This document shows positions 1 to 24,595 of a stretch of DNA of 64,000 bases, piece by piece (position 1 is the stretch's first letter; every line of letters starts with the position of its first letter). Origin of the DNA: Sporobolomyces roseus. Taxonomy: Eukaryota > Basidiomycota > Microbotryomycetes > Sporidiobolales > Sporidiobolaceae. Below the pieces are notes generated by a model. That model saw nothing but the letters and a program-made list of their open reading frames with translations, was not told the DNA's origin and searched no databases. The stretch covers positions 558,001 through 622,000 of the forward strand of contig JADILM010000012.1 in the NCBI GenBank assembly GCA_016617785.1. The letters run 5' to 3'. The position numbers and the translations under genes were made by a program.

Positions 1-456
1 TGTACGTTTCTCTCTCTCTCTCTCTCTCTCTCTCCTTTTTCTCTTGTTTTTCGATACTGATGTAAGATTTGTTGGGAGAGGAATCATCAGTGTTATATTC
101 GATTCTCTTCTTCCTCCTTATCCAACCTTACTCACTCCCATCTCACCCAAACTCCAACTTACCACCTAACTCAAACTTCTCTCTCCCCCTCAGACTCGCT
201 CACTCCAGAAGAATTACAAGAAGCACAGAAAGAGAGTAGGAGACCAATCGTGAGTGAGCCGTTGGATGGAGAGAGGGAGAGGAGTTATTGGGCGAGTTTA
301 CCGGAGAGTACGAGGAAATCTGCGAGATTGGGAGCGGGAGGTGAGGTAGGGTTGGTCAAGATGCCGAGGGGTCAAGAGGAAGTGGGAGGTGGGGGAGCGG
401 GAATGGGAAATGGTGGAGGAGGAGGAGGGAAGAGAAAGAAACCGAGTAAATTCTGA
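1..456 (+). CDS. 3' end of an unrecognised gene, cut by the window edge
   Basis: The visible part is an intron running from the GTACGT donor at base 2 through a long CT tract (about 9-34) and a TACTGAT branch point to the acceptor ending at 90. A terminal exon follows at 91-456, ending in TGA. The exon encodes about 121 residues: a Ser/Thr-rich start, then a more conserved-looking acidic stretch (TPEELQEAQKESRRP, SYWASLPESTRKSARLG), and a glycine-rich tail ending in a basic KRKKPSKF cluster that could be a nuclear localisation signal. I do not recognise the family. The frame is open across the exon only if it is entered from the acceptor at 90, which supports the splice model. The function is unknown. 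Confidence 0.6.
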
Positions 457-797
457 ACGAAGAAAGAAGGCGGGAAGTTCGAATTGCTTTTCTCTCTCTA
501 GGGATTGGCAATGGGAATGCGAGGCGAGCGAGTGTTCATCTAGTATTGCTTCTGAAGTCGGTGAATCGGAACTACGATGAACGAATGCGAGACCAAGGGT
601 CGATCCTTCGCTCAATCCGATCTCTTGAGCAGTCAGTGAGTCATGATCGGGATGCCAATCTGTTCAGTATGGACAGTTCAGTATGGTCCATCGGTCTGCC
701 TCTCTCGTTGAATCTGGAGAAAATCAATGAGAAAAAGGAAAATTGGCAAATTCGACTCTGACAAGCGCTACTACTTCTGTCGTTCCTTGATCCTCCT
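457..797. other. convergent intergenic stretch
   Basis: This is the space between the 3' ends of the left-edge gene and the minus-strand ubiquitin-like gene. Open frames here are short and lack splice support. I see nothing else in it. Confidence 0.4.
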
Positions 798-1549
798 TCA
801 AGCCGAAGCTGCTACAGCGACGCCTTCTTCACTTTTGACAGCGGTCGTCTCGTCGACCCAGGGAGGATAGAGGCCACAGCCGCACGCACAACCTGAAAGT
901 TTGAGGACAAGATGGAGAGTCGAACCGGTGTTGAGGTTGTAGTGACTCGCAGTGTGCGTATCACTCTCGAACCTTTCAATACAAATGTACGCAAGGTCTT
1001 CAGATGTCTATGCGACAAAAACGAGCGAAAAGTGATACTCACTGGGTTCCAGCGAAAATGAGACGTTGCTGGTCGGGAGGAATCCCTTCGGAGTCCTGAA
1101 TCATCGCTTTCATCTCGCCTACCTATATCCATCGCTCCAAGTCCTCGTCAGCTACTTGATTGAGATACCCACTTTGACCCGAACGCTAAATCCTCGCTTT
1201 CGGCAATAGAGAAAGACGACATTCTCTCCCTCCCTAAAGCGTGTAGCGTAAGCGTAGACCTACAGTAGTATCATCGGTGATCCTGAACTCTACCTGTGCG
1301 ATTCGCGGTGACAGGGAGAGGGTTGAGACGGTGCACAAGAACAAAAGTTGTCAGTCGGTTCAGTCAACCGATAGCAGCAAGCTGATCGGCAAGATAGCAG
1401 CAGCGTATGGATAGAATGAACGAGAGCTCACCGTTTTGCCAGTGAGAGTCTGATGGAAGGCGACAAGGAAAGAGTCAGTCGAATCAGCGAAAGATGACAA
1501 GGCGAACAAGGGAGAGACTTGCCTTCATATAGATAGGGAAGAGCTGCAT
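798..1549 (-). CDS. divergent ubiquitin-like protein with Cys-rich C-terminal tail (copy B)
   Basis: This five-exon model encodes about 109 aa. Exons are 1523-1549, 1432-1449, 1264-1293, 1043-1122 and 798-972. The ubiquitin fold is recognisable from TLTGKT (residues 7-12 of ubiquitin), [19 protein letters not shown] and STLHLVLKL. It has drifted: the equivalents of Lys33, Lys48 and Lys63 are lost, Arg72 is Lys and Arg74 is Ser. Where ubiquitin ends Gly75-Gly76 it reads Gly-Cys, then ACGCGLYPPWVDE and a tail ending VAVAASA. Exons 2-4 have the same lengths and phases as in the neighbouring copy A, so the pair is a tandem duplication. Exon 1 (MQLFPIYMK) is three residues longer than in ubiquitin and needs a GC donor (AAG|GCAAGT), so it is the least certain part. 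No Gly-Gly end can be produced, so ordinary conjugation is not expected. The role is unknown. Confidence 0.75.
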
Positions 1550-1830
1550 AGTGATCAGACAGATGAGTAGAGGCGAGAACGGAGAAGTGAGGTAAATTGA
1601 GGTGAGAAGAGGAAAGAAGAAGAGCGAAATCTCCATTTTCAGCGAAATTTGAGAAAAGGTTTCGCAAAGATATCGAGAATCGGAGCAGTGTCGCGAACCA
1701 GTAGCCATGAAGAAGTGATATCTCTCTCTCTCTCTGGATGTCAACGAAATCAACGAGTAGAAAAGGAAAATCGACAAATTCAACAAATCTTCGACAAGCG
1801 TTACTATTCATTTCTCTCCTCTGATTCCGT
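1550..1830. promoter_or_regulatory. spacer and probable promoter between the two ubiquitin-like genes
   Basis: About 280 bases lie between the stop of copy A and the start of copy B, both on the minus strand. The stretch should hold the copy A terminator and the copy B promoter. A short CT/AG microsatellite lies near 1721-1736. I recognise no specific motif. Confidence 0.3.
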
Positions 1831-2589
1831 TCAAGCTTGACTAGCTACTGCGACTCCATCTTCACTCTTGACGACCACGCTCTCATCAGCCCAAGGAGGG
1901 TACATTCCGCATCCACAGGCACAGCCGCGAAGCCTGAGAACGAGATGAAGGAGTGATTCCTTTTGAATGTTGTAGTCGGAAAGGGTACGACCGTCTTCGA
2001 GCCTAGTACAAGTCAAGACATACCTTATCAGTCTGTGTAGAGCGACCCGAGACAGAAGGGAAGCGAGAACATACTGTTTTCCAGCAAAGATGAGGCGTTG
2101 TTGATCAGGAGGGATTCCTTCCTTGTCTTGAATCATACGTTTGACTTCGTCGATCTGTGTCATGACAAACTCTTGTCAGCTGAATACACGATGCGAAACG
2201 GACTCCGAATCGATCCTTGACGCCGGAAATTGAGGAACTGCCACTTTTGACTCCTTTTAATCCCACAGGAAGAGTAAGATAGCACTTACAGTGTTGGTAC
2301 TCTCGCAATCGAGAGTGATCTTTGTCTCAAAGGAAGAGGGGTTGTTGGAGAGATCCACGGAAGAGAAAGAGATTCGAGAAAGCGAAGGGAGAGAACAAGG
2401 TTCGAAAAGGCCTTTGAATCAGCTATCGTTTTTACTATCGTTCGATCAGCTACAGTCAGGTACTCACCTTCTTACCAGTTTGAGTCTGTGTCAAGTAGAA
2501 AGATCAAGAAAGGGGTGTGAATGTAAGTCAGTTGATGAGCATCAGAAGAGAAGAGGGGAGAGAGAGCTCACCTTGGTGTAAAGGAGCAT
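1831..2589 (-). CDS. ubiquitin-like protein with Gly-Cys end and conserved Cys-rich tail (copy A)
   Basis: Five exons (2572-2589, 2468-2485, 2290-2319, 2075-2154, 1831-2002) encode 105 aa with every junction in phase. Residues 1-76 align to ubiquitin without a gap, and I count about 59 of 76 identities to the standard sequence. Residues 30-75 match except at position 66. Ile44, Val70, Lys48, Lys63, Arg72 and Arg74 are kept, while the first 29 residues are much less conserved. Residue 76 is Cys, not Gly, and 29 more residues follow ([13 protein letters not shown], then [15 protein letters not shown]). The tail matches copy B at 21 of 29 positions. It resembles neither the eL40 nor the eS31 ribosomal fusion tail. 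In the ubiquitin pathway E1 activates a free Gly76, which is absent here. A non-conjugated regulator, a decoy, or a precursor cut in an unusual way are all possible inferences. Confidence 0.88.
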
Positions 2590-2957
2590 CGTAGCTAGAG
2601 CTCGAGATCTTTGAAACAGAGTCTCGATGAGAAAGCGCGGAACGAGGAACGAGAGAAGAGAGAAAGAAAGAGGAAGAGTCGACTTTGAAGAAACACTTTG
2701 GAATCCGCCAGGCTCTCGGAAACTTCGCAACCTCCGACTCACGCCTTTGCTTGCCTTACCCTACTGATAGTCAATACGCTGTGAGTCACAGACCACGCGC
2801 TAAGCATTGTTTCCGAGTGATCTTAGCGAGTCGATGAAAATACATATTCGATCGAACTTCTCCTTGAAGTCGATAACGCTCACGTCCGTTCCTGCACATC
2901 GTTGATGGTTGCTAGATACGACGGTATAGTCTCTGCACAGGCCTACTCAGTCCTCAT
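2590..2957. promoter_or_regulatory. upstream region of ubiquitin-like copy A
   Basis: This is about 370 bases between copy A's start and the 3' end of the AT-hook gene, both on the minus strand. It should contain the copy A promoter and the AT-hook gene terminator. I see no clear motif. Confidence 0.3.
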
Positions 2958-4396
2958 CTAAGCGTTGTCCTCATCTTCCTCTTCTTCTCTCATTTCCCTC
3001 CCTGCCTGTTCCCCTCGAATCCTTTCCCTGCGTTTCTGTGAGTCGAGACATCACTACACGTCAGCGACTGATGAGCGCCATGACGAGAGTGACGACTCAC
3101 GAGTACGACTTCTTTGACATGTTGCAACAAACTCTCCTCGATCTGAGTAGCGAGCAACTCCTCATGCAAAGCCCTGTAAGCTCTATCATAATACTCTGAA
3201 TGTTCTTCCAACGCTTGAAGTAGCTTTGTAGCGAAAGTACTATCAACCATCCGAGGAGAGTCAGCGAATGGTAACGAAAGAGAGAGAGAGAAAGAGAGAA
3301 GACTCAACGGATTCATAGCTCTCCTAATCTCATCTTTCTGTTCCTCTGTTAATTCCTCCACCTCCTCCATTTCCTTCTCCTCTGACTCGTGTACCTCCAA
3401 GTCGAGTAAGGGTTCGTCCTCTCGAATCAATCGGGCTTGACGGAAAATACGAGGGATCAAAGGTGGATCTCCTTTCTTGTTTCGTTTCTTCTTTCGTTTC
3501 CTCTTTTCCTCCTTTTCACCTCTTTCGCTCCCTCCTCCACTTTGGCTTCCACTCGCATTCGAGCTGGATCCAGAGTCCGAGTCTTGATTCGAGGGAGATA
3601 ATTGAGGAACTGCTCCGAGATCTGGGAAATAACTCTCTCCTCCTGATAGTGCTTGATACTGAGCTGGAGGCGTAGGTAATTCGAGATCATATCCGTCTTC
3701 TGCAGCCTTTCGTTTCCCTTTCGTCGTCGTGTTTCGAGGTTGCGTTGTTTCTTTCCTCGGAGGTCTTCCCCTCTTTTTCGGCGGTGGTGGAGTTCTAGGA
3801 GTTCCAACAGGTTTCCCATCTTTTCTAGGTCTTCCTCTACCCCTCTTGACCGGTTCAACTTCACCTTCCTCTCCCTTTTTTCCTTTCATTCTCTTCCCGC
3901 CTCTTCCTCCTCCTCCCTCTTGTTCAACCAATTCATCCAAATTACTCGCACCACTTCTCAACAACGCAGCATACATCTCATCGTTCGCTCCAGGTGGTTC
4001 AGGTAAGCGATATGGATCATTGACATTGTAATCTCCTTGAATCCCGTTTCGAGCTACTGCGGCTGCGATCGAATTCGGTCCAGGTCCAGCTTCTGCACCA
4101 CCGTTCGAGAGGAAAGAGTAGTCGTCGAAAGTGTTGTTGTTGTCGTTGTAGTGTTGAGCAGTTTGGGCTTGCAAAGCGAGGTTTTGAGAGGCTGCAATCG
4201 CTGCACTACGTTTGGGACGAGAGTTTTGGGAGAATGCGGAGGAAAAGTTCATGGGTCGAGAGGAAGAAGTGTCGAGGGAGAGTTTGGGGTTCGTGGAAGA
4301 GGAGGAGGAAGAGGGGAGTTGAGAGGTAGATTCGGGTTGATCGTTCAAGAGGGCGAGAATGTCGTTCGTTTCTGGGGAGTAGTCGGGGATCGACAT
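2958..4396 (-). CDS. AT-hook nuclear protein, function unknown
   Basis: Three exons (3309-4396, 3101-3239, 2958-3035) encode about 434 aa. The first half is Ser/Asn-rich. Around residues 195-225 there are AT-hook cores, KRGRGRPRKDGK and KKRGRPPRK, which typically bind the minor groove of AT-rich DNA. A very basic KRKRKKKRNKK run near residue 310 looks like a nuclear localisation signal. The C-terminal 120 residues are charged and probably helical (EEHSEYYDRAYRALHEEL, then a KRRERIRGEQ and an acidic end) and may hold the conserved interaction domain. The last two introns are needed to keep this helical part in frame, because reading through them inserts Ser/Leu runs and shifts the C-terminus. 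It may be a subunit of a chromatin-modifying or remodelling complex, but I cannot name it. Confidence 0.72.
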
Positions 4397-4851
4397 ATTG
4401 AGGGTGTTCTATCGGGTCGTGAGGTGTGAAAGTAGGATAGGGCAGTGGCGAGCAAAGTAGAGGAAGGGGGAGAGAGGGAGGAAAGTCGAATCTGAGGAAA
4501 CAATCTGGTTATAAGTGCTTCCTAGATAGCTTGAGACAAGCGCAGACGTACACTGACCCTCGTATCAAGTCTATTATACTCCTTCCACCACTGCTTGTCG
4601 AGTTTAGCGAGTTGTTGATCGTTCAACTTGATGAAGAGAAGAAAGAGGTGGAAAACAGCGACGAGAGCTTTCGAGTTCTGTTCTCTGCTTTTTATGTACT
4701 CTTGTGAGGTTACTGCTGATTCTACTGCGCTTAGCTGAGCGATATGTCGTGGTAGTGAAGTGGGAGAAGTTGAAAGAGATGAACCGATTTAAACTCTCTT
4801 TCCTACCTCTCACTTGTACTCTAATCGACCATCCAAGTACTCGAATACTCT
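4397..4851. promoter_or_regulatory. divergent promoter region
   Basis: About 455 bases separate the AT-hook gene (minus) from the LYR gene (plus), so both promoters should lie here. I recognise no TATA box or regulator site. Confidence 0.35.
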
Positions 4852-5742
4852 ATGCATCCACTCCTTGAATCACCCTTGCATCGAATTCCAACTCTGTGGT
4901 CATTATATCGACCACTCCTTTTCGCAACTTCTTCACTCCCTCTCCCTCTCAATCAACGTCAAATCCTACACTCTTACATCAGAGACAACTTCAAGAGGAA
5001 TAGGAAGTTAGGGAATATCGAAAAGATCAAAAGGAAATGGATTCAAGCTGAACAAGTGAGTTCTTTCTCATTCTCTCTCTCTTTCGCAAGCTAGACTGAA
5101 CACTCTCTCTCGCTGATCTAGCTATTGTATCAACTCGAATCAAGTCTTGATTCATCTCTTCACCTCTCACGAACGAAAGAATTAGCTTCCCACCTCATTT
5201 CCCTCCGTTCTCTTCCATCTCATCCTCCTCTTCCTCCCAATCTCAAGCCTCACTCCCCTCCTCAAGCTCCGAAACCTCGCCCCTCAACTCTACACTCAAC
5301 TCAATTCGCTCCCCCAATGTTGAGGGTGAAACCCCAACCTATTCAAACTAGTATGATGATTTTCAACCGAAGGAGGAAAAGTCAGAAACGGTATGATTTA
5401 TTGGAGAAAGCAAAGGAGTACGTGGAGATGATGAAAGAAGAGGAAGGCTTCGAAAGGAGATTGGGTAAGAGGAAGGGAGGATGGGGAGAGGAATGGAAGG
5501 AATGGATGAGGGAGGCGAGGGAGAAAGAGAAAAGGGAACAGGAGAGGAATAACGTGAGTCTAGCCCTCGAACAACCGTTCACTGATCTTGCTCTAAACGT
5601 TGTTTTGTTGTATTGGTGCTCACAGATGCGCATCCCTCCAAAGTTACAAGCTAGAGCGAATAGACTCAGCTTGGAAAGAATCGCAAACGAATCCAACACA
5701 CTCACGACAAAGGCATTTTGTCCACTACTAGACACAGCGTAG
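4852..5742 (+). CDS. LYR-motif protein, probably mitochondrial
   Basis: Three exons (4852-5055, 5122-5553, 5626-5742) encode about 250 aa. Near the N-terminus is LWSLYRPLLFAT with the Leu18-Tyr19-Arg20 motif. A typical LYR-family continuation follows: a run of leucines, then RQILHSYIRDNFKRNRK and a helix ending KWIQAEQLLYQLE. LYR proteins are small mitochondrial adaptors that bind acyl carrier protein and help in Fe-S cluster delivery or assembly of respiratory complexes. Here the domain is followed by a proline-rich linker and a charged helix (EEEGFERRLGKRKGGWGEEWKEWMREAREKEKREQ), which makes the protein longer than the usual 80-120 aa. The ATG at 4852 was chosen because it begins the homologous segment; another ATG at 4814 is in a different frame. 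The specific partner cannot be told. Confidence 0.72.
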
Positions 5743-5959
5743 CTTCTTCGGTTCACGTAATATAACAGAAGAAATATTGCAACAAGATAACTATCAAACC
5801 TTATCATGAGCCCTTGGAGAAACTGAAACAACGACAAAAGTGAACATAAAGGACTCAAACCAAAAGAAAACCAGAATAGAGCGATACAAAAACGACGTTT
5901 TACCATACAACCCCTTTTCTCTTCCAGTCTCCAGTCCCCACACCTCTATCCCCGATTCA
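5743..5959. terminator. convergent 3' ends
   Basis: The 3' ends of the LYR gene and the next minus-strand gene meet in this roughly 215-base gap. It is AT-richer than its flanks, as expected for polyadenylation regions. Confidence 0.3.
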
Positions 5960-7598
5960 TCACACACAAAGACTCCTACCCGGTAAATTAGTAGGAACCG
6001 TTTCACTCCTCCTCAAACCCGGTCTCCCTTTCCTTCCCTCCTTCTTCTCTTTTGGGCTTCCCGGTGGAGGAGTCGGTAATAAACTCCCTTCCTTTATCGT
6101 ATTCGAGGAGTTCGAGGAGCTGGATGATGAAGAAGGTGTAGCGAAAACCATTTGACCAGTTTTAGTAAACCAACAATCTCCACCTCCTTTCTCTCCTTCG
6201 TAAATGAATTCGGATCCTTCGTCGTCGGTCGTGATAGTCGTGAAATAAGAAGAAGGTACCATAGAGTCCTCATTGTTATTGTCCGAATCTTCTTCTGCTT
6301 CTGCTTTCGAATCGGAGGAGGAAAAGGGAAGGTTGGAATCGAGATCATCGAGGATATAATCAGAGGAAGATGAAGAGGGATCGATTTCGGTTATCGAAGA
6401 AGAAATTCTCCAATGATTCCATAAAACCCACCTAGTACCGCACCAATTCAGAAAATCAGTTCTCGAAATAAAAGAGAGGGAAGAGGGAAAGAGGGATCAT
6501 ATTTACTTTTTGAAGCGTAATGCGGCTTCACCAGCTGATGTAGGTCCTCCTTCACTAGTCCATTTGTTTCTCAAACTCATTAATAACAATTTCTTTAATG
6601 CTGGACCACTGATTGGAATTTCTTCCGAATTGGATGATGGTGTGGGAGGTGGTTGGGGAGGGAGTAAGATTGAGGGTGCAGAGATCGACTGAGAGAGGAG
6701 AGGTCGATCTGACGAGACAGGGAGGAGGAGGGATCGTTGACGAATTGTGAGGAAAGTTTGAGGGGAGGAAGAAGAAGGGGAGGTCGAGGTGAGCCAGTTG
6801 TCGGAGAGGGTAGGACAAGTTATCCAGGATTCTTCGGACGGTGAGAAACGAGAGGGTTTCGATTCCCCAGAACAATTCGATATTGATGCCCACCATTTCG
6901 GGATCGCTCCTGAACTTGAACTTGAACGAGAACGAGTCGAGGGAGCGGGGGATAAGAGTAGAGGCGAACGAATGAATGAGTGTAAGAGTTTACGTTTCTT
7001 ACATCTCGAGGCGAGGGGAAGAGGAAAAGGAGGAGGAGGACGTTTTGAAGTGGGAAGAGGAGGGAGTTCGAGGGTGAGAAGGGAGGATTCGAGAGTGGGG
7101 AAAACAAAGGTTGAAGTAGAAGCGTAAGGTGTTTGGAAAGGGTTGGAGAGGGACAAGTGGGATAGTAAGTGAGGTAAATTAGAATTGGCTGTGAGTAATT
7201 CGAGGAGAGAGAGAGAGTCAGCCGACTTGAATCACAACACGCTCAAAGAGGGAGTAGTAGGACTTGCATTGTTGAGTATGTTGATTCAACCGTCGTGGTG
7301 TAGATCCTTCTCCTCGTCCTCGTTGCTGCATAGATTCAACTATACTTTCCTTATCTGTCCTGTCTGTTTCCCATCTCGTCCCTCTCTTCCCTTGACGCCT
7401 CTTACTCGCTACAGATAGCTCTACTATATCCTCTGAATGTTGTGGAAGGGCTTTAGACTTCCCTTTGCGGTCTTGAGAGTGTTGTGAAGGAGGAGTCAGG
7501 GAGGTTGATGAGCAAGAGGAAGAAGAAGGGAGGGGCCGAGTCTTGTGTTGATTCCGGCTAGACCGTCGAGGTGAGGTAACTGCTTCTAGAGACAGCAT
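5960..7598 (-). CDS. low-complexity hypothetical protein
   Basis: Exons 6507-7179 and 5960-6431 are well supported: the junction codes FKK|WVLWNHWRIS in frame. The frame stays open upstream to an acceptor at 7180-7181 but contains no ATG there, so at least one more 5' exon is needed. The only open frame upstream with an ATG starts at 7598 (MLSLEAVTSPRRSS). Joining it needs an unusual donor, so that junction is uncertain. The protein is rich in Ser and Pro, with a basic KKRK patch. Its most conserved-looking part is GPALKKLLLMSLRNKWTSEG and the following WVLWNHWR, with an acidic Asp/Glu/Asn segment after it. I do not recognise a family. Confidence 0.5.
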
Positions 7599-7891
7599 CA
7601 CTCTAGGTATTGATCGAGAGATTGTGAGGGGTGGACGAGAAGGAAAAGAGGGGGGAACCTCCTTCAAACTCCGAAGGGTGTTACTCTCTTTCGCTTTGGA
7701 CTCGCCTGCTTTGCATGGTCTGATGAAGCTATGAAAACTCTTCTTGAGCTCTCCGACAAGCGCTGAAAGAAATAGATTGGAAATCTCTCATTTCTCTCGC
7801 TTTTTCGCAACCTCAGGTCGGATCTCGACGAAAGCCACTACTTTCTCCTCAACAACCTCTTAACTTTCCCCCACACAGCAAAACGAGATCT

Positions 7892-9952
7892 CTATAGATA
7901 ACCATAACTAACTCCACTCCTCCCCATACCTCCCATCCCAATCCCATCCAACCTAACAACCTTCCCTTCCTCCCTCAATAGGGTCTCGTTGAAAGTAGTT
8001 CGTCTCGGACTCAAGGTCACTTCGATAGATGTAGAGAACCCTTCTTCTTTATTATTATTCTTCTCGTCTTCGGAAGAGGAGTAGTGTAAGTCTTCTTCGT
8101 GGCCTTCTCCGGAGGAAGGGGCGAGGAATTCTCCGTAATCTGAGATGGAGAGTGCGGTTGCTGAGGATTGACGAGTGAATGAAGGGAGCGGAGGAGCGAG
8201 GTTAGTTGAATGAGAAGGAAGGGGAGAGGGTTGAATAGTCTGTGAGAGATCGAAGCCCGTACTTGAGCTTCCTGCGTCTCGAAAGTAGAGAATCTCGATC
8301 ACTCACTCTTCTTAACCAACCAGGAGATTCCGGTGAGGTGACAGCTGGAGATTGCTGAGCATATCGATCGGCTATTGGTGTCTTCGTCGAGCTCAGAGGT
8401 GTTCCGATCCGATCGATTGTTATGGGATTCTGTGAGCGTGAAATTGGAGAGATCGGTGAACCTTTAAACATGTCACTCAGTGACTGAAGCTACTTGTCAG
8501 CTTGCTAGTAGAGAGAGTGAAGAGGGAGTGAGGGAGACGGGACGGACCGAAGCATGTTTCCCGTAATCGGTGGTCAAACGAGCTCGAGTGATCTCGGCAC
8601 CTCCTGTGAGATCATTGACCTCATCCAAGTCAGGAGGGCATGACATGAGTGAGAGAGTAACTCACGTGTATGAGAAGCAAGTAAGGAGAAGACGTAGAGT
8701 TTCGGAAGGATCATTGCGAAAGCCTGTGAGTAGTCGATCTAGCTTCAGTTGGAGCTTTGCGAGCTAAGACTGAAGAGCAGCTGTACTCACCATCCATATT
8801 CCACTCTGTCGTCCCTCGTTGTTCCAAGCGAGTAAAAACGATAAAGAAAGAATCGAACAAATCGTAGTGAGAAGATTCGTCTGAGGAACCTTACATCGAT
8901 CTCAGCCTGTGATTGGTTGACTGACCAAGGAAGGATTACTCACCTCGACGATCAATCTCGAAGCTACTTCCAAGATAGTCTCTGATCTGACCGCGAATCT
9001 AGGACTTCTAGCGTCGACTAAACTCGCAATCGAAATAATGAAATTCTGTGGGCGAACGTTCAATTTAGCTCGTTCTCGCTCGAGAGGCTAACTGAAACGA
9101 TTGACTCACGCAGATGACGGTACAGACAAGGTAAGAAATAGTTTGCCAGCCTAGATCTTGATGAACGTTCATTGCGAAGAGTAAAACGGAAGAATGAACG
9201 CTCGTGTAGATGGCAACGATTCCGAAAGCTGTGCGTTGCCACTCCAAATCAGATACGTACCGTAGCTGTGTAGTAGAGGGAGAACGTACCGAGTTGTGCT
9301 GATGCGAAAAGAGCGATTGAGCTCACTAATCCGATTCGAAGGCGGGAGGAGTAGAGCGATGAGAGTTTGAACGCATAGTACAGCTGAACGATCTGTACCA
9401 TGATCTCGAGCACATGAGCAATACTTCTCGACATGTCTCATGCGAAGGGAGACGTACGAATCCGATTGAAACGAGGAATTCAATATGAGCTGAAAAAGCC
9501 CTGCGACCCGACAAACGAAATCAATCAGCTTTCAGATGACTAATTGCGATGTCGAGACGCACCAAGTAACCTTCTCCATGCTCTTCATCTCTCCGAATCC
9601 CTCGATTAAATGCTCATAAACAGCCCAACACAAAATTCCAGTATGAGCCGTACTCGCCAACGTAATAAAGGATATCTGTACAGCTTCCGGTTCCACATCA
9701 GCATTCGATCCAACGTCGTCTGCTGAGAGGAGAGGGAGGACGTACGGATAGTTTCCATTTCCAACTTTCTTGAGTTGTCGAAAAATACGAATAATTCAAA
9801 TGAACGCATGAAGAAGTTAGATAGATCGAGAGGTAGAGAGAGATCAAAAGTGGACCAAATCTGTACGAGTCGAGTCAGCTGCATCAGTCTAAGGAGAGTA
9901 GAGATGCGAGGTAAAGCGAGACGTACGTTGAAGAGGCAGAAATCGAATTCAT
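7892..9952 (-). CDS. DUF6534-type integral membrane protein (left copy)
   Basis: About 12 short exons; the first seven junctions I traced are in phase (9927-9952, 9746-9860, 9563-9675 and on). The protein begins MNSISASSTFGPLLISLYL and continues with several hydrophobic helices: LTSSCVHLNYSYF, TLASTAHTGILCWAVYEHLI, AFSAHIEFLVSIGF, IGLVSSIALFASAQL, IVAIYTSVH, LGWQTISYLVCTVIC and TTICSILSLSFLLAW. This order and the early (S)TFGPLL are typical of the large basidiomycete DUF6534 family of seven-helix membrane proteins, whose function is not established. A cytosolic-looking Ser/Pro-rich tail starts near MFKGSPISPISRSQNP and ends at the TAG at 7892. The gene lies in the left arm of an inverted duplication and its twin is at 15234-17142. 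No reading-frame damage was found in this copy. Confidence 0.72.
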
Positions 9953-10325
9953 CTCTCTTCTTCTTGAAGGTGTAAAACGAGTGTGATACAACGCAGACCA
10001 GCTGCTGATACTAGATGAGTGTCGAGAATAGTGAAGAGTAGGAAAGAAAGAGAGACGGACGCTCTCCTTTCAAGTTTGTTTGTCGTTCGTGTTCGAGAGG
10101 ACTGAGCGGAATCTGAAAGGGGGGAACGCTAATTGAAAGATCGGTCGCTGGGGCATCGTAGAAAGAGATAGCTGTGAGAGAAAGGTAGGAGTGAGTCGAG
10201 GTGAAGGGGAAATGAGAAGAGAGGGGAAGAGAGAAAAAAGGGAAAAGCTCACTAATTTCGCAAAACCAAAAATGAACGAGTGAAACCTACTTTGCCTCTC
10301 TTCCAATGCTGACGTCTCGTTGGCA
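8130..10325 (-). repeat. left arm of an inverted duplication
   Basis: Read on the minus strand, this segment aligns with 14885-17075 on the plus strand. Similarity is strong through exons, introns and about 370 bases upstream of the gene start. For example, CGTTCATTTTTGGTTTTGCG occurs in both, as does TCTCGAACACGAACGACAAA. Exon lengths 1-3 are identical (26, 115, 113 nt). The ends are approximate. Confidence 0.75.
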
Positions 10326-20700: not shown

Positions 20701-23700
20701 GCAGTCGTGCAGAGTTGGATTCTCGTTCAAGCTTCACAGGGAAAAGGCAAAGAAGATCTTGACCGCTCTCGCAGGCTCTATCGCTCTCGAAGGCAAGCTC
20801 TCCACTCCTCTCATGTCGACGAGGTGACCAGCGCTGACAACGACTTATCGTCGTCGCTGGCAGAACTCGAAGTTGGATCGTACAACGAATTCTACGTTAT
20901 CAGCAAGGAGAAGATACCCGATACTGAGAAGTGGAAACACGATCCTTCGACACCGCTCGAGAAGATACTCTATTCCTTCCACAAGTACGAAGTGAATAAG
21001 GACAGCTGCTTGCATCTGCTCGGGTTCGTTCTCGCTCTCACTCGCTTGCTCCTCACCCTTCGTGTATTGACTCCAGGTTTCTGCGATTCCACAGTCCGAA
21101 TCGAATCTCGCCCTTCGAGGTGCGCTACGAAGACGCTCTTGCCGAAGCGAAAGTACTCGCTGCGCGCGCCAGACTTGCGAATCGCGGAAATGCTACATCG
21201 TCGAAGACTGGATCGAGATCATCGAAAGACAAGACTAATTCTCTCCAGCTCTCGCTTCCGTGAGTCTGCCAACTCACTCCCCTATCCTCCCATTGACCTG
21301 AGCCTGACTGACTGTACCCTTTCTTGCTCTCGACGAATAGCTTCGGCGCTGCTAAGCCACCCCCGATCTCTGAAAAGAACTTCTACTCGAATCCGAATCA
21401 ACCCGATCGACGACCTCCGTTATCAAAGGATCGAGATGGAGACTGGGTCCACTCACAGCAAGACGACACCTCGAATACTCAAGTTCGTCGCTCAAGTCGT
21501 CCAACGAAATCAGTTTATAAAGCTCCGATCAACCGACCTCCTGCCGAAAAAGACCCCTACCCGACGGATCATGTGTAAGCACCTACCTTCGTTCTGTGAT
21601 CTCCTACTTCTGAGACTGCAAGCTTACCTGTGTCCGCATCAATTTTTAGGGTCCTCGAGTATCCGATTGGAGAACCCGGAGCAGTTACGGTGACGTGGGG
21701 TGATAAGAAACGTTTGAATGATGAGGAGTTCCTCAATGATACGCTGATCGAGTATGGACTCAAGTAAGCAGCCTCTCTCACTTCTCGCTCTTCTGTCATT
21801 TACTGATCGAGTTTCGAGTGTTCTTGAAACAGGAAAGCTATGGTCGACGTCAAACGAAAGGATCAGGAGCGACCTGACGACGAAAAGGTCGCTCCAGTCG
21901 TGCACGTGTTCAACTCTTTCTTCTACAAGAAATTCTCATCGGGAAAGAATCCACCAGAAGCGAAGCAGGTTGGACGACAGTAAGTCTTCACCTCTTCCTA
22001 GATGGTGATGAGATCTCACACCCTTCGGCGTGATCGCAGTGAACCGTACTTTCTCGTCCAGAAATGGACTAAAAAGTTTGATCTCTTCGACAAAAAATAC
22101 ATTATCGTCCCTATCAACGAACAGTAAGCTCACCTTTCTCCCTTACTCGCTTAATCCTTTTCGATACTGATGATCCCTTTCATCATCGTGATAGTCTTCA
22201 TTGGTATCTTGCTGTCATCGTTAATCCTCGTTGGATCATCGATGCAGCAACCGACGAAGACCCTCTTCCGATCGAAAAGACTGAGAGAGCTCCAGCTACA
22301 CGTGGTCGAACCTCGACAGCAGCATCAACAAACGAAAACTCGGTCACCCTCTCCTCTTCGTCTCAACCTGGATCTCCCGCCGCCGCCTCGAACCAAGAAT
22401 CAACTGCCGAAATCACAAGTCGACACTTCTCAGGCAAGAAGAAGAATGGAGATATCGTCGTTAGCACTCCCTCAAACTCAAACTCGAACGCTGGAGAAGA
22501 GGACGATGTAGAGATGGAGTTTGAGGAGGGAGAGAAATCGGAGGAGCAGATCCAGGCGAAATTGAGAGAAGAAGTTGCAAAGACTGAGATGGGAGGAGAG
22601 GAGGAAGGAGAAGAAGATGAACTTGATGAAGATGGCGGGGAGGGTGATGTTACGATGAACGATGCGAGCGTAGAAGGAGGAGGACCCTCGAATGATCAAG
22701 GCGATACGTTGATTCTTTCGGACGACGAGAACGATCAAGTCACTCCCGAATCGATCGAACAAAGAGTCTCTTCAACCTCCAAAACTGCTCAAGCTTCCAC
22801 TTCCACTCGAACTCCCGTTCCTATCGGCGCTCCAACTGCTCCTCCGAAAGGTGCTTCTTCTCCACCCAAACAACCTACTCCTCCTCTCGCCGAAGCGATG
22901 GATGTCGATGAAGAACTCTCTGCAGTGGATCTAGCTCGAGAACTCGGAGCGGATGAATCTCAAGCTGATCGGTGCGTTTCGCTGTTTTTTTGTTTTCACT
23001 TCGAGCGAGAAATCTCGACTGATCCTGTGATTGGTTTTCGCAGATGCTGGATTTTTACCTTTGACTCTCTCGGTGGAAAACACGATGCTGTCGTTGAGAA
23101 ACTCAGGAGGTACCTCGACATGGAGGCAAAGACGAAAAAGTTCAAGAAATGGACCGCTGCTGATCAAGTTCAAGGTATCACGGTCAAGGTTAGTCCTTTC
23201 TTCCCTTCTCCTGCTTTCTCTTGCTCCTCACTGACTGAAGACATTCTGCAACAGGTTCCTCAACAACCGAATTTCTGTGACTGTGGACTTTACATTCTTC
23301 ACTTCGTTGAACAGTTCCTTTCGGATCCCGCCAATATGACTCGTTACATCGTCGTGAGTCTCCCTATTCCTTCTATATTCTACCCTTCTTTGAGTTTCGC
23401 TGATTCTGATTTGCGTCGACAGGCTCGACAACATCCGAAGAAAGGAATTACCGGAGGAGGTCCAGAAATAGCTCGCAAACGAGCCGTTCAGAAAGACTTG
23501 ATGCGAAAGCTTGATCAAGCGATGATCAAAGAAGATGCTTGGAATGAAGAGATCGCTCTTGCGAAGAGGAGAACGATGAGATCAGAGGTCGAAGGGTTGA
23601 TGAAGGAGTACCTACCGATCAAGGTAGCGAAGGATGCGAAGGAAGCAGAGGAGAAGAAGCAAAGGGAGAAGAAGAGGGAAGAAAGGGACGCGAGGGAACT

Positions 23701-24595
23701 TGCAGCTGGAGGAGGAAACGAGGCAAGGAAGGAGAAGGAAAGGGAGAAGGAGCAAGAGCAAGCACTCGCTCAACAACAAGCTACCGCAGCCAAAGTCGCG
23801 TCGAAACCTCGAGGAGGTCGTGGCAAAAAGAAGGCACCCGAAGTTATCGAATTGGAGGATTCCGACGATGGAGATGCAGAAGCTTCACTCGCTGGATCAC
23901 CGAAGAAACCACAACACAACGATCCTCCTCCTCAAGCTGATCCAGCTCCTTCTGTTGCGAAGCCATCTTCTTCCTCTCAGCAACAACAACAACCGAAACC
24001 CTCCTCCTCCTCCTCTGGACAACAACCGACAAGCGCCGATTTCTTGCCCATTCCCACTCCAGCTGTCGCCTCATCTCCTGCTCGTCCTTCTCCTTCCCAC
24101 TCTCAGCAACATACTCTCCAATCTCCCGCCAAATCGAATCACGTCACCACTTCCCTCGCCCCTCGAGGTCTCGTCGATTACGCAAGTGAAGAAGAGGGAG
24201 ATGTCGGCAACACACAGGAAGAGCAAGATGCAGAGATGGAACGATTACGACCTCGTATCCGAGAAGAACCTCCTTCTGCCGATAGCGACGGTGGACGATC
24301 ACCTCCCCCGAAGAAGAAGAAACGAAACAATCCTCGCTCTCCCTCTCCTCCTCCACCTTCCTCTCAGCAGCAACGACGCTCCTTCACACCTGAACAAAGT
24401 CAACCTGATTCTTCAATCGAAATTCGTAATCCCGTCTCTCCAGAACTCGCAGCTCCTCCAGCGAATCAAGAACAACTCGTTCACGATAAAGTACCTTCTT
24501 CAACCGGCAAGAGTAAATCTCGAAGGACGAGTGCGAGACACAAGGGTATGAAGGGAGAAGGAGAGAAGGAGGTTGAAACGCTCGAGTTAGATTGA
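17746..24595 (+). CDS. Ulp2/SENP6-type SUMO-specific cysteine protease
   Basis: Fifteen exons, all in phase, give about 1950 aa. The first 900 residues are disordered (Ser, Gln, Arg, Asp repeats). Around 1000-1050 a folded block appears (ITITRRTSGGIEDEVVGFKL, VQSIEWMLLPLP). The C48 protease domain starts near 1110 with TWGDKKRLNDEEFLNDTLIEY. The catalytic triad is visible: His1222 in HLHWYLAVI, Asp1486 in FTFDSLGG and Cys1537 in QQPNFCDCGLYILHF, with the oxyanion Gln before it. About 260 mostly acidic residues separate His from Asp, as in Ulp2, SENP6 and SENP7 enzymes, which trim poly-SUMO chains in the nucleus. The tail is charged and Pro/Ser-rich. The ATG at 17746 is chosen because its frame splices into exon 2 at 17904. 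Intron 5 (20793-20863) needs a GC donor. Confidence 0.88.

Follow-up and report, generated by a model that had tools for sequence, protein, structure and literature searches.

Tandem ubiquitin-fold genes with a Gly-Cys end and a conserved cysteine-rich tail near the NEDD8/RUB1 gene of Sporobolomyces roseus

We describe a small family of Sporobolomyces roseus genes encoding a ubiquitin fold in which Gly75 is followed directly by Cys76 and a conserved Cys-rich tail, 30 residues long counted from that cysteine. The window, by which we mean the whole 64,000-nucleotide stretch of DNA analysed here (C12:558001-622000 of a 22.4 Mb, 15-contig assembly), carries two intact members, genes B and A, in tandem on its minus strand. 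Judging from sequence, it is probable that these Cys-tail proteins are real, functional and non-conjugatable and, if so, we lean slightly towards the tail being used as an adaptor or anchor. The model as a whole, of non-conjugatable ubiquitin-domain adaptors which pair an Ile44/Val70 face with a thiol-rich docking or anchoring tail, may be right or wrong with roughly equal chance.

Ubiquitin is among the most constrained of proteins, and its function hangs on Gly76. The family would be a naturally occurring example of ubiquitin that has given up its role as a conjugated tag for some other one, and in gene B residues 30-75 are almost unchanged while the reactive end has been swapped for a selected Cys-rich tail. 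Such a naturally occurring, presumably non-conjugatable ubiquitin lends itself readily to genetic testing, and the tie of the family's gene structure to the NEDD8 locus bears on how ubiquitin-like proteins arise.

Table 1. Positions of the Cys-tail genes and associated features. Bare positions are those of the window; L021:776-3470, L021:7512-9998 and L022:7465-7998 correspond to C12:540776-543470, C12:547512-549998 and C12:557465-557998.
Feature	Position	Strand	Description
Gene B	1831..2589	-	105-aa ubiquitin-fold protein, Cys76 and Cys-rich tail; five exons (spliced model)
Gene B exons	2589-2572, 2485-2468, 2319-2290, 2154-2075, 2002-1831	-	Spliced model
Tail of B	1831..1923	-	Cys76 to stop, 30 codons and stop
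ACGCTTG	1795..1801	-	3' flank of B (alignment of four 3' flanks)
Gene A	798..1549	-	109-aa ubiquitin-fold protein, Cys76 and tail; five exons (spliced model)
Gene A exons	1549-1523, 1449-1432, 1293-1264, 1122-1043, 972-798	-	Spliced model
Tail of A	798..890	-	Cys to stop: CACGCGLYPPWVDETTAVKSEEGVAVAASA (spliced model and assembly tail search)
Inverted-repeat arm	2970..5663		88% identity to C12:540776-543470 across 2711 aligned columns (blastn)
Gene C	C12:543862-545179 (L021:3862-5179)	+	Double ubiquitin fold, then tail
Gene D	C12:545454-546186	+	A-like; frameshifted in exon 4
NEDD8/RUB1 gene	C12:546483-547152		0.3 kb downstream of D

Two intact Cys-tail genes in the window

The initial annotation had placed tandem ubiquitin-fold genes with a Gly-Cys end and a Cys-rich tail at 798..2589. 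These limits proved exact, since 798 is the final base of the gene A stop codon and 2589 is the A of the gene B ATG. Its lettering is the reverse of ours, its Copy A being our gene B and its Copy B our gene A. In the spliced models the reading frames of both genes are open along their whole length and all of the splice sites are usable. The four introns of gene B (86, 148, 135 and 72 nt) are all GT-AG, while gene A has a GC-AG first intron with an AG/GCAAGT donor and three GT-AG introns. Within window positions 1831-2175 (minus strand), the 72 nt intron 4 of gene B contains no in-frame stop codon, and a transcript that retained it would still be read into the tail in frame.

Both proteins matched the Pfam ubiquitin family PF00240 (E 4.9e-27 for B and 1.3e-20 for A), as did gene C, described below, in two stretches (4.2e-41); gene D was left out of this comparison. 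Protein B is identical to the host's own ubiquitin at 61/75 positions overall and at 45/46 over residues 30-75, which bears out the earlier description of a near-perfect ubiquitin over that span with Cys at position 76. Protein A is more diverged, with 44/75 identities overall and 33/46 over residues 30-75 (one extra loop residue left out), and has three additional residues close to the N terminus and a single one in the loop that follows residue 51. A diverged body with a tail kept at 21/29 positions had been reported for this copy, and we counted the same 21/29 after Cys76, or 22/30 with it. A search of Rfam gave no match in window positions 1-10000.

Two further copies adjoin the NEDD8/RUB1 gene

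Searching the host assembly with the tail (E up to 10; counts from this search are lower bounds) located at least four places, all on contig C12 and each ending a ubiquitin fold. Besides B and A these are genes C and D, which lie on the plus strand 12-14 kb outside the window, inverted relative to B-A and adjoining the NEDD8/RUB1 gene. In gene C a first ubiquitin unit (fold C1) runs head-to-tail into a second (fold C2) with no Gly-Gly or cleavable joint, and blastn of the window gave nothing upstream of B that corresponds to this first unit. The GT donor of intron 8 has been lost from its expected place in gene C; as read from the sequence, a GTTTGT nine bases further on would preserve the frame and add three residues. 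The frameshift of gene D relative to A, read by eye, looks like two bases missing from a run of A, and so may be an assembly error. With this frameshift and the lost donor, half of the family may be decaying.

By both tail and body, B pairs with C2 and A with D. B-A and C-D sit in mirror order on the inner sides of an inverted repeat of about 2.7 kb, the arms of which are about 17.5 kb apart. Long open frames occupy both arms, with a stop-to-stop frame of 472 codons on the minus strand in the window and one of 484 codons in the other arm. Between the arms are the ubiquitin-like genes, RUB1, a reverse transcriptase/RNase H gene and an isocitrate dehydrogenase gene. The reverse transcriptase and RNase H gene (C12:547512-549998) is retroelement-like, has a frame of at least 829 codons and lies just downstream of RUB1, and the PDB matches to a fragment of the isocitrate dehydrogenase sequence (on L022) are NADP isocitrate dehydrogenases. 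An xRRM domain (PF19977) is encoded by a frame just outside the window (C12:557465-557998), on the strand opposite to A and B. Within the window, an open frame at 22082-24592 on the plus strand, some 20 kb away from the Cys-tail genes, encodes a Ulp1-type domain (Peptidase_C48), a relative of the SUMO/NEDD8 proteases. The intron-rich genes and the ubiquitin, RUB1 and metabolic genes are eukaryotic in kind, and the thymidylate synthase of the host matches PDB 2aaz, the Cryptococcus neoformans enzyme, at 215 bits against 150.6 bits for the next chain, in keeping with a basidiomycete.

The RUB1 protein is identical at 54/75 positions to what we take to be the human NEDD8 sequence, and ends in LSLRGGKQ, from which it can mature to Gly-Gly. 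As a query against the assembly it gave 22 matches and no recognisable second RUB1. A separate search of the assembly gave 21 matches, which comprised nine exons of the Cys-tail cluster, eight ubiquitin units (three on contig C1, three on contig C8, one on C4 and one on C11) and four weak matches elsewhere.

The 3' flanks of all four Cys-tail copies carry the block [AG]CGCTTG (GCGCTTG at 762-768 for A; near L021 positions 5213 for C and 6234 for D), which has been kept though much of the flank has diverged. It is a possible 3'-end or regulatory signal.

The tail is conserved and matches no family searched

In A and B the tail opens CACGCG[ML]YPPW[AV]DE. Across the four copies 20/31 columns are invariant when Gly75 is counted; all three cysteines belong to these, as does YPPW, and the stretch C-A-C-G-C-G is unchanged in every copy. 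Neither Pfam (E up to 1) nor the PDB (E up to 10) gave a match to the tail, and the NCBIfam matches of whole proteins A and B were all below curated cut-offs and inside the fold. No exact match to the tail DNA pattern was found in prokaryotic or viral contigs, collections which say little about fungi; nor do the 382 viral and 121 prokaryotic-genome stretches that fitted a pattern in a search with the tail alignment, none of which was confirmed, or the plasmid collection, which gave no match to the tail, have much bearing on them. A literature search, covering mostly sources other than subscription journals, returned no such fungal family among the matches listed.

We considered derivation of the tail from the extension of the ubiquitin-eL40 or ubiquitin-eS31 fusion and found no support for it. 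Of 1000 shuffles, 812 for B and 795 for A attained the local alignment score with eL40, and 142 for B and 75 for A that with eS31, the comparison of A with eS31 being the lowest. The view that the tail is unlike either fusion was thus upheld, in that no clear likeness was seen. A RiPP-like core peptide was also considered for the Cys and Trp content of the tail. RiPP cores usually vary between paralogues and this idea was dropped, as the part containing Cys and Trp is the most invariant.

The invariance of the CxCxC turn in four of four copies would suit a small metal- or redox-responsive protein, with the turn as a Cu(I) or Zn site or as an oxidation switch and the ubiquitin fold as carrier. 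We regard this as quite improbable, given that the tail has three Cys only, without a fourth invariant Cys or His, and gave no match in the PDB or Pfam.

Tail and body are under purifying selection

Between the two subfamilies the tail proteins are identical at 22/30 (B-A and C2-A) or 21/30 (B-D and C2-D) positions. In proportion to the sites available, silent changes exceeded replacement changes in each of these comparisons: 16.8/22 against 12.2/68 for B-A (pS 0.77, pN 0.18; Fisher p 6e-7), 14/22.3 against 13/67.7 for B-D (pS 0.63, pN 0.19; p 1.7e-4), 15.5/22.2 against 11.5/67.8 for C2-A (pS 0.70, pN 0.17; p 8.7e-6) and 11/22.5 against 13/67.5 for C2-D (pS 0.49, pN 0.19; p 0.010). Within pairs the tail test gave p 2.3e-4 for A-D and a non-significant p 0.07 for B-C2. 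For the body the corresponding values were 1.3e-8 (B-A), 1.4e-8 (B-C2) and 1.1e-6 (A-D). These tests draw on four related copies from one species and are not independent of one another. The pattern of substitution indicates that tail and body are both under purifying selection. The Cys-tail genes are presumably expressed.

The argument for selection on the tail is carried by the comparisons between subfamilies, because the likeness of tails within pairs extends to silent sites. Silent differences between B and C2 amount to 4.5/20.7 in the tail and 28.8/46.8 in the body (p 0.008; dS 0.26 and 1.30, respectively), and those between A and D to 9/23.8 and 29.3/42 (p 0.019). This unusual silent-site similarity makes part of the within-pair likeness look like gene conversion. 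The gene in the repeat arms has a dS of 0.25 and a dN of 0.04 over 360 codons compared, and the simplest reading is conversion between the inverted copies that took in the arms and the tail exons and spared the bodies. A recent conversion event in which a ubiquitin gene overwrote part of B was considered separately and left no clear sign: where B has the same residue as the first contig C1 ubiquitin repeat, the codons agree at 17/23 positions in exon 4 and 13/25 in exon 5, and with the last contig C8 repeat at 18/23 and 11/25, while codons of those two ubiquitin repeats agree with each other at 47/75.

These data bear on whether the genes are functionless tandem duplicates becoming pseudogenes, their tails kept alike only through mutual conversion of copies. 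The frameshift in D, the lost donor in C and the silent-site likeness of tails within pairs would all be expected of such duplicates. However, between subfamilies the protein has been kept despite heavily changed silent sites, and the frames and splice sites of A and B are intact, so that we consider this explanation very improbable. The initial annotation had taken conservation of the tail to mean that it is functional. That conclusion is supported by the comparisons between subfamilies and needs tempering for the likeness within pairs, where conversion would seem to account for part and the B-C test falls short of significance.

Ubiquitin residues kept and lost suggest a non-conjugatable adaptor

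Gly76 is required for conjugation of ubiquitin. All four copies end the fold in Gly75-Cys76 and none has the Gly75-Gly76 end, in agreement with the earlier statement that these proteins cannot provide the Gly-Gly terminus for E1 activation. The presence of Cys76 in four of four copies makes classical activation very unlikely. Residues I36, R42, I44, G47, V70, L73, G75 and C76 are kept in every copy. At position 8, which belongs to the usual binding face, A and D alone keep Leu, whereas B has Gln and C has Thr. Of the lysines compared, every copy retains K6, K11 and K27 and none retains K29; K33 is kept in B and C and is Ser in A (D was not read at this position), and K48 and K63 are kept in B only. 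Most of the main binding face therefore survives, and the commonest chain-forming lysines have been lost outside B.

Residue 72 is Arg in B and C, Lys in A and Thr in D, and B and C keep both Arg72 and Arg74. Retention of these arginines in proteins without Gly76, encoded by genes that adjoin RUB1, is what might be expected of a decoy or inhibitor that mimics ubiquitin, blocking ubiquitin-binding domains, or an activating enzyme of the ubiquitin or NEDD8 pathway, and is not consumed. A plain decoy would not need a conserved tail of 30 residues, and residue 72 varies among the copies; we think such a role unlikely.

We favour the adaptor model, according to which conjugation by the normal route would be blocked in the Cys-tail proteins and the ubiquitin fold kept. 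Through the Ile44/Val70 face they would dock on partners that carry ubiquitin-binding domains. The tail, which reads CACGCGxYPPWxD followed by VKSxxGVAV, would provide a second docking or anchoring element. The tail might act most simply via its three clustered thiols, through S-acylation, a disulfide or metal, together with the invariant YPPW. The presence of the YPPW and VKSxxGVAV blocks suggests a protein-protein contact too.

The same three Cys, clustered just after residue 75 and invariant in four of four copies, could alternatively form disulfides with targets or be acylated, so that the protein tags its partners without E1, E2 or E3, as reported for UBL3/MUB. There is a precedent for this in UBL3, for which disulfide modification of targets via the two C-terminal cysteines C113 and C114 has been suggested (PMC6158211). 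The Cys-tail proteins, however, end in ASQA (B and C), AASA (A) or TASA (D) with no terminal CAAX box, and B scores 15 bits against the UBL3-type Pfam family PF13881, for which the cut-off is 23. The 25 residues beyond the last Cys, 14 of them invariant, would moreover be superfluous for a bare thiol anchor. A thiol-linked modifier thus seems rather unlikely.

Gene structure and protein sequence seem to point to different relatives

The Cys-tail genes and RUB1 (that of the host genome being the one compared) have introns in common after residues 6, 12 and 22, all in phase 0 and at the same places. A fourth, phase-2 intron lies at codon 49 in the Cys-tail genes and at codon 50 in RUB1, and the intron lengths are 76/146/140/71 nt in RUB1 and 86/148/135/72 nt in gene B. 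In contrast, the four ubiquitin genes examined share with the Cys-tail genes only the intron after residue 12 (positions in ubiquitin genes were assigned by eye). In polyubiquitin this intron stands alone in each unit; the eL40 fusion gene has further introns after residue 25 and near residue 72, and the eS31 fusion gene has further introns inside codon 7 and after residue 25. By gene structure, then, the family may be tied to the RUB1 locus.

In protein sequence the family goes with ubiquitin and not with NEDD8. Protein B is identical to RUB1 at 37/75 positions. In a tree of 10 rows and 75 columns, B and C2 grouped with ubiquitin (85/88), A grouped with D (98/94), and RUB1 grouped with what are presumably the human and yeast NEDD8-type sequences (92/97), the A-D fork being the only one to reach the strict support mark. 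A single clade uniting all folds of the Cys family, A, B, C1, C2 and D, was neither established nor rejected on protein sequence (p-AU 0.117). Three departures from ubiquitin, namely Tyr4, Met or Leu for Lys29, and Cys76, occur in all four copies and argue for one origin.

One possibility is that an old, intron-rich ubiquitin/NEDD8 gene pair lies behind the coding of ubiquitin by a gene of RUB1-type structure. A further proposal would have ubiquitin itself re-tooled at a fungal NEDD8 locus to serve as a modifier or an anchor, single in A and B and double in C, in which a C-terminal thiol cluster, acting through a disulfide or acyl link, replaces the Gly-Gly/E1 chemistry; we give this little credence.

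Comparison with known systems

One close match to the Cys-tail fold is ubiquitin itself, as encoded by the polyubiquitin genes on contigs C1 and C8, with which it shares the fold, much of the sequence and the intron after residue 12. The Cys-tail genes differ in having Cys76, the tail, a single unit (double in C) and three further introns at positions unused in ubiquitin genes. The last repeat of the contig C8 polyubiquitin gene (1057k, L026) ends Gly-Gly-Cys-stop, and the contig C1 polyubiquitin gene (1004-1005k, L025) ends Gly-Gly-Gln-stop.

NEDD8/RUB1 is alike in its introns after residues 6, 12 and 22 and in intron lengths, but differs in protein sequence and in its Gly-Gly, which is present in none of the four Cys-tail copies. 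NEDD8 has a small residue at position 72, which among the Cys-tail copies is found in D (Thr) only and not in B (Arg), C (Arg) or A (Lys).

Membrane-anchored UBL3/MUB likewise has a ubiquitin fold followed by conserved Cys instead of Gly-Gly, and a non-classical use of the C-terminus is described for UBL3, with C113 and C114 suggested to mediate disulfide modification of targets (PMC6158211). The Cys-tail proteins lack its CAAX box, and their cysteines are internal, the tail continuing with YPPW and VKSxxGVAV. Against PF13881, C (14.8 bits), like B, and RUB1 (15.9 bits) were all below the cut-off, and A was not listed. A search for a UBL3-type gene elsewhere in the genome gave no match but was uninformative, as the control also gave none. 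UBL3/MUB is the closest precedent that we found for a ubiquitin fold whose terminal cysteines do the work, though the Cys-tail genes do not pass its sequence tests.

The ubiquitin-eL40 (contig C11) and ubiquitin-eS31 (contig C4) fusions also join ubiquitin to a Cys-containing C-terminal extension. These fusions keep Gly-Gly and are cleaved. ISG15 and FAT10 are double ubiquitin-fold modifiers, and gene C resembles them in its two folds in a row with no cleavable joint; unlike them, it is fungal and has the Cys tail, not Gly-Gly, at its C-terminus. In integral, non-processed ubiquitin-like domain proteins no Gly-Gly cleavage frees the fold, which adjoins a second functional part. The Cys-tail copies have no Gly-Gly and a selected tail, and may act as free-standing (integral) ubiquitin domains.
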